This document shows positions 21,660-24,265 of a stretch of DNA of 64,000 nucleotides, piece after piece. The DNA is from Scilla litardierei. Its lineage: Eukaryota > Streptophyta > Magnoliopsida > Asparagales > Asparagaceae. Each line of letters opens with the position of its first letter. Position 1 is the first letter of the stretch. Below the pieces are notes generated by a model. The model was not told the origin of the DNA. It did no database searches and was given only the letters and a program-made list of their open reading frames with translations. The DNA is taken from NCBI GenBank assembly GCA_030789695.1, contig CM061135.1:111794301-111858300 (forward strand), read 5' to 3'. Made by a program: the position numbers and the translations under genes.

Positions 21660-21730
21660 CTGCATGAATCACGTTACATCACTATCTAAACTAGGAAAAG
21701 GAAATAGAAACGGAGAGTAAACGTATTTAC
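21660..21730 (-). other. Intron-like 71-bp insert in integrase
   Basis: On the minus strand the exon text ATGGAG is followed by GTAAATACG and the insert ends CATGCAG before GAGATCG. GT-AG ends, T-rich body, phase 0, length 71 (not a multiple of three, and stops inside). Skipping it puts the two halves of the integrase core exactly in register at a conserved site. Confidence 0.65.
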
Positions 21731-24149
21731 CTCCATGTATCTCCTCGCTAGCGTCTCAGTAGACTGTCCCACTCGGAAGGGAATAAAGTGCGCGGATTTG
21801 GTCAATAGGTCTACGATCACCCAAATTGCGTCGTTCTGCTTCGGACTCCGAGGTAGTCCAGTCACGAAATCCATAGTGATGTGCTGCCACTTCCACTCCG
21901 GAATCGGAAGCGGTTGTAGCAACCCTGTCGTACGCTGATGCTCCGCCTTTACTTGTTGGCAAACCAAACACTTGGCTACACTCCGAGCCACACTCCTCTT
22001 CATACCATGCCACCAAAAGTTCAGACGAAGATCCTTGTGTACCTTGGTCCCACCAGGATGCACAGAATACGGCGAACTGTGTGCCTCCACCAATAATTCC
22101 TCCCTGATGTCTCCAGCTGGCACACACAACCTGGCTCCAAATCTCAACGAACCATCCTCGTGAATCAAAAAGTCAGTCCGCAGACCGGCTTCCACCTGCT
22201 CCCGAATCCTCACAAGCTTAGCATCTCCAGCCTGTCCAGCCTTGATCCTATCCACGATCGTCGACTGTATCTGCATACTCATCAACGAAGAGGTCTCTCC
22301 AGGAAGAATAATCTCGATACCAGTCTCGCAAAAATCCTGCTGCAATCTCCACTGCGAGGTCAACATCATCATCGCTGGAAGTCTGCTCAGCCATCCGGAA
22401 CCACATTCACCTTGCCAGGGTGATACTGCAAGTCAATCTCGTAGTCTGCCATGAGCTCCAACCATCGACGCTGTCGCATGTTGAGCTCCTTCTGTGTAAA
22501 GATATACTTCAAGCTTTTGTGATCGGTGAAAATCTTCACCTTCTCACTCAGCAGGAAGTGCCTCCAAATCTTCAGCGCAAACACAACCGCAGCCAACTCC
22601 AAATCATGTGTCGGGTAATTCTTCTTATGAGCCTTAAGCTGACGAGAAGCATACGCAACCACATGCCCATGCTGATGCAACACACATCCAAGACCCTTGC
22701 CAGAGGCATCGCAAAAGATCTCGAATCCTCCACTCTGATCAGGCACAGCAAGTACAGGGGCAGTCGTCAATCTCTCCTTCAGAATACCAAAAGCCTTCTC
22801 GCACTCATTAGACCAAACATATGGTACATCCTTCCGCGTCAGCCTAGTCATCGGCTCAGCAATCCGGGAAAAGTCCTTAATGAAACGTCGGTAATAGCCT
22901 GCAAGTCCAAGGAAGCTCCGGATCTCAGACGATGACTGCGGAACTGGCCACTCTCTGATAGCCACAATCTTCTCGGGATCCACAGAAATTCCATCACCAG
23001 GCACCACGTGCCCGAGAAAGGCAACTCTATCCAGCTAGAACTCGCACTTGGAATACTTAGCATACAAACGATGCTTCCTCAAAATCTCCAACACTGTCCT
23101 CAAGTGCGAGGCATGCTCTTCCTCCGACTTTGAATAGATCAGGATGTCGTCAATAAAGATAACGACAAACTTGTCTAGAAAGTCATAGAAGATCAAATTC
23201 ATCAGGTTCATAAAGACTGCGGGCGCATTGGTTACACCAAATGGCATAACCACGAACTCGTAGTGACCATACTTCGTCCTGAAGGCTGTCTTCGGGATGT
23301 CGTCCTTCTTCACCTTAAGCTGACGGTAGCCACTCCTCAAATCCAACTTAGAGAACACCCTCGATCCTCCGAGCTGATCAAAGATGTCATCTATCCGAGG
23401 CAAGGGATATTTATTCTTGATAGTCACATCATTCAGCTCCCGGTAATCCACACACATGCGACGCGTACCATCCTTCTTCTTTACCAGCAACACCGGTGCT
23501 CCCCACGGAAACACGCTAGGATTGATGTATCCCTTCTGCAAAAGCTCATCCAGCTGCCTACACAACTCCTCCAACTCTGCTGGAGCCATCCGATATGGCG
23601 CCTTAGAAATAGGCTGCGCTCCCGGCACAAGATCGATCGAAAACTCGAGAGCTCGATCGGGCGGCCGTCCAGACATCTCCTCGGGGAAGACGTCGTCGAA
23701 TTCACGTACCACAGCTGGTCTATCCTGCTCCATCTGCATAGCAACAATCTCCACTGGCTTGGCCCGGAACCTGACAGGACCAAGCGAACTGCTACCACGC
23801 CTGAACTCGAACACTGGATGTCCGGGGATCTCGAACATCACCTTCTTCCTCCGACAATCGATCGTAGCATAGAAGCTCGCAAGCCAATCCATTCCAAGCA
23901 CTGCATCGTAGTTGATGATGTCGTGGACAATAAAGTCAGCGTAAAGCTCATGTCCACAGACCACCAAAGGGCAAGAATTGCACCCACGATGCACCGAGAT
24001 CACGCCATTTCCTGTAACGATATTCCAACTCTTGAGAAGAGGGGAAGTCGTCAAGGAATGCTTCTCCACGAAGCTCCGAGAAATAATGCACATCGATGCA
24101 CCTGAGTCAAAGAGGACTCGTGCAGGAAATGTGCAAACCATAATCACAC

Positions 24150-24265
24150 CTAACAAACAATCTAGCAATCAGACCCTATTCTAACAAACAATCATATGCA
24201 ATCAAACAAACATAAGCCAACAATCAAAACTATCTAAGGAAGGAAACAACTAGTTTAAGAGTTAC
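24150..24265 (-). other. Intron-like 116-bp insert between gag and protease
   Basis: Minus strand: ATCGCAG, then GTAACTC ... TTTGTTAG, then GTGTGATT. GT-AG ends, strongly T-rich 3' half, phase 1, 116 bp, several stops. Skipping it joins the end of the zinc-knuckle region to the protease in one frame, the arrangement normal for this lineage. Confidence 0.65.

Follow-up and report, generated by a model that had tools for sequence, protein, structure and literature searches.

Two putative spliceosomal introns in a chromodomain Ty3/gypsy retrotransposon lineage of Scilla litardierei

A stretch of 64,000 nucleotides of the Scilla litardierei genome (hereafter the window; assembly GCA_030789695.1, contig CM061135.1, positions 111,794,301 to 111,858,300) carries on its minus strand a Ty3/gypsy chromodomain long terminal repeat (LTR) retrotransposon in which two GT...AG segments interrupt the coding region, one at the gag/protease boundary and one within the integrase core. 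Both segments are almost certainly spliceosomal introns, judging from genomic sequence: their place, phase and GT-AG ends are conserved, they are lost exactly, and introns are found at the same places in diverged families. The element is very common in the genome, with hundreds of copies from which intron 2 has been removed exactly. Taken jointly, two spliceosomal introns in a large lineage of plant chromoviruses and a role for their splicing form the best explanation of the data, and one that we consider likely.

The two segments and their exact losses

The minus strand of the window was read directly from position 27000 to 19000. Segment 1 (GTAACT...TGTTAG, 116 bp) is in phase 1, splitting a codon after its first base, and EVIAG is followed by VIMVCTFPARVLFDSGAS across the junction. 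Segment 2 (GTAAAT...ATGCAG, 71 bp) is in phase 0 and lies between RYME and EIVRLHG. Each length leaves a remainder of 2 when divided by three, both segments contain in-frame stops if retained, and their T content is 48% and 42%, that of exon 2 being 27%. An earlier note, made from the letters of the window alone, had described two T-rich, stop-containing GT...AG segments of lengths not divisible by three; direct reading agreed with it on all these points and placed both segments at its coordinates to the base. Its proposal that they are introns is borne out by the conserved GT and AG, by exact exon-exon losses and by introns in other families that match in position and phase but have diverged bodies, as follows.

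Copies were sought in the 3.68-Gb assembly that contains the window and includes 13 very large contigs. Searching with a 401-bp probe that spans segment 1 yielded 5165 candidates, from which 40 copies, 96-100% identical, were scored; one was the window copy and the other 39 were retrieved. All 40 carry intron 1 with its GT and AG ends. At intron 2, eight of the 39 retrieved copies fell short of the site and 30 of the 31 that reached it had the intron; together with the window copy, GT and AG were found in 31/31 copies having it. The remaining copy, L019, was missing exactly 71 bp; deletions of at least 10 bp were otherwise seen just twice over 3.4 kb in those 31 copies. Retained intron 1 terminated the gag frame through an in-frame stop inside the intron in 59/59 copies (one of 60 rows, L075, did not cover the site and was left out), and an in-frame stop was present inside intron 2 in 31/31. 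Nucleotide diversity in exon 2 was 0.034, 0.022 and 0.086 at codon positions 1, 2 and 3 (32 rows), indicating that constraint on the protein acted in this family while both segments were in place; exon 2 was free of in-frame stops in 6 of these 32 rows.

Copies without the segments were identified by a whole-genome search for junction patterns allowing up to 3 mismatches, for which reversed controls returned 0 matches each. The exact exon-exon junction of intron 2 had at least 721 matches (383 + 338) and its donor junction, marking retention, at least 4408 (2207 + 2201). For intron 1, the corresponding numbers were at least 20 (11 + 9) for the exon-exon junction and at least 6676 (3316 + 3360) for the retained junction. 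Relative to the retained number, exact loss therefore amounted to 16.4% for intron 2 and 0.3% for intron 1, counted as copies and not as events. Twenty of the 721 intron-2 losses were retrieved, all from zero-mismatch matches, so that their junction is exact by construction; 19 of them keep intron 1, with a donor GT in 19/19 and an acceptor AG in 18/19, and L075 was unreadable there. Among the 20 loci lacking intron 1, the breaks fell at the predicted points in 8/8 loci read there, and intron 2 was kept in 14, exactly missing in 3 and unreadable in 3. All four combinations of intron presence and absence occur. In loss copies the sequence continues uninterrupted through the conserved motifs at junction 2 in 23/23 cases (L059 with nearby damage) and at junction 1 in 8/8. 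Copies lacking the segments altogether had been named in the earlier note as evidence against introns; the copies found without them lack them exactly, which favours introns. Such exact loss at predicted splice points is the footprint that RNA splicing would be expected to leave.

A tree of 52 copies (31 with and 21 without intron 2) required at least 5 changes of intron-2 state, or 9 if only losses were allowed, and shuffled labels required 11 or more; losses of intron 2 have thus been passed on by descent but have also arisen repeatedly. A second tree, inspected by eye, included 8 of the 20 intron-1-less copies, which fell in at least 3 places; the position of L076, on a long branch, is unreliable.

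Introns at the same sites in other families and relatives

The protein relative P0011 was searched in the same genome and gave 127 scored integrase matches, 73-77% identical, of 83,799 candidates. Open frames were 303-320 amino acids long in 57 matches, 1112-1137 in 49 and 1505 in one, the other 20 being scattered. These classes are about what is expected of frames bounded by intron 2, by intron 1 only and by neither, respectively. Eleven short stretches were then read and sorted by eye into families, family A being that of the window. L110 to L114 (families B, C and D) have intron 2 at an identical codon boundary; it was absent from family E (L115 and L116). Intron 1 occupied the same phase-1 site in L120 (family B) and in L117 and L118 (family E), and was exactly absent from L119, which resembles family E. 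The intron-1 bodies of families A, B and E were no more alike than shuffled sequences (z 0.7 to 1.0); intron-2 bodies of families A to D were still somewhat similar (z 2.0 to 5.4), though less so than the flanking exons in 6/6 pairs. Overall, bodies were less alike than flanking exons in 9/9 cross-family comparisons, although for one downstream flank barely so (0.47 versus 0.44). The segments therefore combine GT...AG ends, conserved place and phase, freer bodies and exact removal, as spliceosomal introns do.

Relatives elsewhere were compared using two protein lists, the best 120 each of about 8000. The residue three before junction 2 was Y or F in 86/86 continuous proteins of one list, and Y in 104/105, with V in one, in the second. 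In P0001, P0010, P0011 and P0012, which break this pattern, the protein starts at this point with a short tail whose last residue, just ahead of the conserved EIV, is Q; translation of an intron with a terminal CAG would have the same result. P0005 and P0007 show no interruption at the intron-2 site. Six loci (L104-L109) in contigs labelled bacterial or archaeal, which are probably eukaryotic contamination, encode a Ty3/gypsy integrase that is likewise continuous in all six, L109 being only 35% identical. Continuous relatives indicate that intron 2 is not general among chromoviruses. Scans of viral contigs and a first scan of genome contigs returned no relatives, and a second scan of genome contigs gave only these six loci.

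Relatives from Cucumis melo, among the same best 120 of about 8000, carry the annotation gag-pol protein, with lengths reaching 1400 amino acids. P0242, a relative of 1151 amino acids that is 72% identical to exon 2, shows VITG, then unrelated residues, then the protease; its N-terminus perhaps reads through an intron at the intron-1 site, for which an acceptor could not be placed. The N-termini of protease-reverse transcriptase matches were uninformative on intron 1, since many start at natural methionines.

The window copy and its surroundings

The features of the element are collected in Table 1. A 5-bp target duplication, CAAAG, flanks it at 28359-28355 and 17866-17862. The Pol order of protease, reverse transcriptase (RT), RNase H and integrase followed by a C-terminal chromodomain, together with LTRs and a short target-site duplication, is that of plant chromoviruses. 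Going by the look of its proteins, the element may belong to the Tekay/Del clade. Pfam matches placed gag upstream of segment 1 and the RVP_2 protease, RT and RNase H downstream of it, and the H2C2 integrase domain upstream of segment 2 with SH3_Tf2-1 downstream. The rve integrase core was matched below cut-off only, in exon 3 (20.2 versus 32.6 bits), as expected of a split domain, and the chromodomain scored 26.7 bits against a cut-off of 25.1. Intron 2 presumably interrupts the integrase core between the first and second catalytic aspartates. Read by eye, the segment edges show AGGT repeats at intron 1 and only AG/G at intron 2.

Table 1 Features of the retrotransposon in the window
Feature	Positions	Strand	Details
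Ty3/gypsy chromodomain LTR retrotransposon	17867..28354	-	10,488 bp; LTRs, target duplication, Pfam domains
5' LTR	25506..28354	-	2849 bp; 98.84% identity to 3' LTR
Exon 1, gag with zinc knuckles	24266..25355	-	Open reading frames and Pfam; internal stop in window copy
Intron 1 (almost certain)	24150..24265	-	116 bp, phase 1, GT-AG
Exon 2, protease, RT, RNase H, first part of integrase	21731..24149	-	Stop and frame break in window copy
Intron 2 (almost certain), within integrase core	21660..21730	-	71 bp, phase 0, GT-AG
Exon 3, second integrase part and chromodomain (20761-20949)	20761..21659	-	Frame break between both in window copy
3' LTR	17867..20716	-	2850 bp

The window copy is decayed. 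A stop lies within gag, where open reading frames (ORFs) meet at 24797/24798, and another within RT (23034/23035); a frame break occurs at about 22387-22432 in the linker between RNase H and integrase, and the chromodomain is in a different frame from the exon-3 ORF. According to the earlier note, skipping each segment brings the flanking conserved domains into one frame. These domains do join across both segments, but owing to the further damage, skipping both segments alone gives no single open frame in this copy.

Elsewhere in the window, two Ty1/copia-like elements, assigned from the look of their proteins and each broken at one place, lie at 4995-9269 on the minus strand (frames of 1169 and 254 amino acids) and at 37700-40594 on the plus strand (428 and 703 amino acids). 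Near-identical arrays at 50585-51130 and 55620-56165, 4580 bp apart, each consist of five units spaced by about 115 bp and based on TAGTCGGT motifs. Several families of direct repeats, 60-98% alike, are common to 15000-17600, 29200-33650 and 34800-37200, and runs of N occur at about 13650-14200 and 37190-37700.

Proposed role of splicing and comparison with known elements

We hypothesize that full-length RNA escapes splicing often enough to act as the genome. Translation of unspliced RNA would yield Gag only, ending within intron 1; removal of intron 1 would fuse Gag to protease-RT-RNase H, and the additional removal of intron 2 would complete the integrase and add the chromodomain. The ratio of Gag to Gag-Pol would then be set by how efficiently intron 1 is spliced, a role taken by frameshifting in other elements, and we infer that Gag and Gag-Pol output are separated in this way. 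Spliced RNAs would occasionally be packaged and reverse transcribed to give exactly intronless copies, and loss of intron 2 would be tolerated and spread, loss of intron 1 seldom so. The idea in the earlier note that unspliced RNA is the genome and spliced RNA the mRNA requires a correction here, since intronless DNA copies indicate that spliced RNA is sometimes reverse transcribed. The rarity of intron-1 loss has three candidate explanations: packaging of RNA spliced at intron 1 may be a rare event, copies devoid of this intron may propagate poorly, or its splicing may simply be less frequent. It is conceivable, although we would sooner doubt it than adopt it, that intron 1 acts as a licence: only RNA keeping it would be packaged efficiently, holding genome and mRNA apart as in retroviruses, and intron 2 would make active integrase dependent on a second splicing step. 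If this were true, the thousands of copies in four intron states would be a record of reverse-transcribed RNA isoforms.

Among the alternatives, the one that survives best holds that the introns are real but passive, being spliced from translated RNA with no regulatory role and persisting only because packaged RNA exits the nucleus unspliced. At least one intron is dispensable, intron 2 being lost in 721 copies and absent from family E, and most plant relatives among the best 120 per list have neither; we nevertheless find this alternative rather unlikely, as intron 1 is hardly ever lost (20 versus 6676), is common to families A, B and E and, when retained, ends the gag frame in every copy where this could be read. 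Less likely still is that most exact losses of real introns were spread by recombination or template switching with intronless copies and not by fresh reverse transcription of spliced RNA. There are intronless subfamilies, and the trees show a mosaic of intron states, but a first precise loss would still be needed, the placed intron-1 losses are dispersed among intron-1-bearing copies, and family E has an exact intron-1 loss of its own (L119). That the segments are small transposon insertions or chance GT-AG stretches, as the decay of the window copy and the AGGT on both sides of intron 1 might suggest, is highly improbable in view of the thousands of copies having them at one place, their exact absence with no footprint, the unrelated intron-1 bodies at the same site and the codon constraint in the exons.

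Several points weigh against two spliceosomal introns whose splicing separates Gag from Gag-Pol. The probe spans intron 1, so that its retention in 40/40 copies is partly a matter of ascertainment, and the 3-mismatch limit misses diverged copies, making all junction counts lower bounds. The numbers refer to copies and not to events, and an intron state can pass from copy to copy by recombination, which may inflate the number of events. T-richness is not general, intron 2 of family B containing 32% T only. Family E and P0242 have no intron 2, which is therefore not essential, and the rarity of intron-1 loss could reflect poor splicing and not function.

Reverse transcription should purge retrotransposons of introns. 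The two described here have persisted in several diverged families and in copies numbering in the thousands, with exact losses accumulating alongside. The loss ratios, in copies and not events, would reveal from DNA only the frequency at which spliced RNA is packaged and the intron that is protected. In chromoviruses, splicing would be a means other than frameshifting of setting Gag against Gag-Pol, and elements of this kind look broken to annotation based on open frames.

Splicing of plant LTR elements is already known, and the two-intron arrangement in a chromovirus appears to be new: the accessible parts of the sources cited below, found in a literature search that mostly excluded subscription journals, do not describe it for Ogre, BARE1, Bagy2, CRR, EVADE, two sunflower elements or LORE1. 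CRR, the centromeric chromovirus of rice, belongs to the CRM clade. Its transcripts are spliced (PMC3735527), and, unlike in CRR, splicing here would join conserved domains. Bagy2 (PMC3735527) and the two sunflower elements (PMC7730604) are further spliced plant LTR elements. LORE1, a plant chromovirus, encodes the same kind of chromodomain polyprotein, but in one long ORF (PMC2832683). In the Ty1/copia elements BARE1 and EVADE, the balance of Gag and Pol output is determined by a small intron close to the end of gag (PMC3735527; PMC12786077); there the spliced mRNA gives Gag only and the unspliced RNA Gag-Pol, whereas here the arrangement would be reversed, the retained form ending after gag (59/59) and the joined form, by its sequence, opening pol. 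DNA copies of spliced BARE1 RNA are reported to be incapable of amplification (PMC3735527), unlike the present element, in which DNA copies of the spliced form are common. A close likeness is to Ogre, a Ty3/gypsy element of the Tat lineage in pea and Medicago, with a partly spliced intron whose removal is needed for the whole polyprotein (PMC6317226), as is suggested here from DNA. Ogre is not a chromovirus, however, and in contrast to an Ogre-type intron between protease and RT, which here share one ORF (24168-23035), intron 1 precedes the protease and a second intron lies within the integrase.
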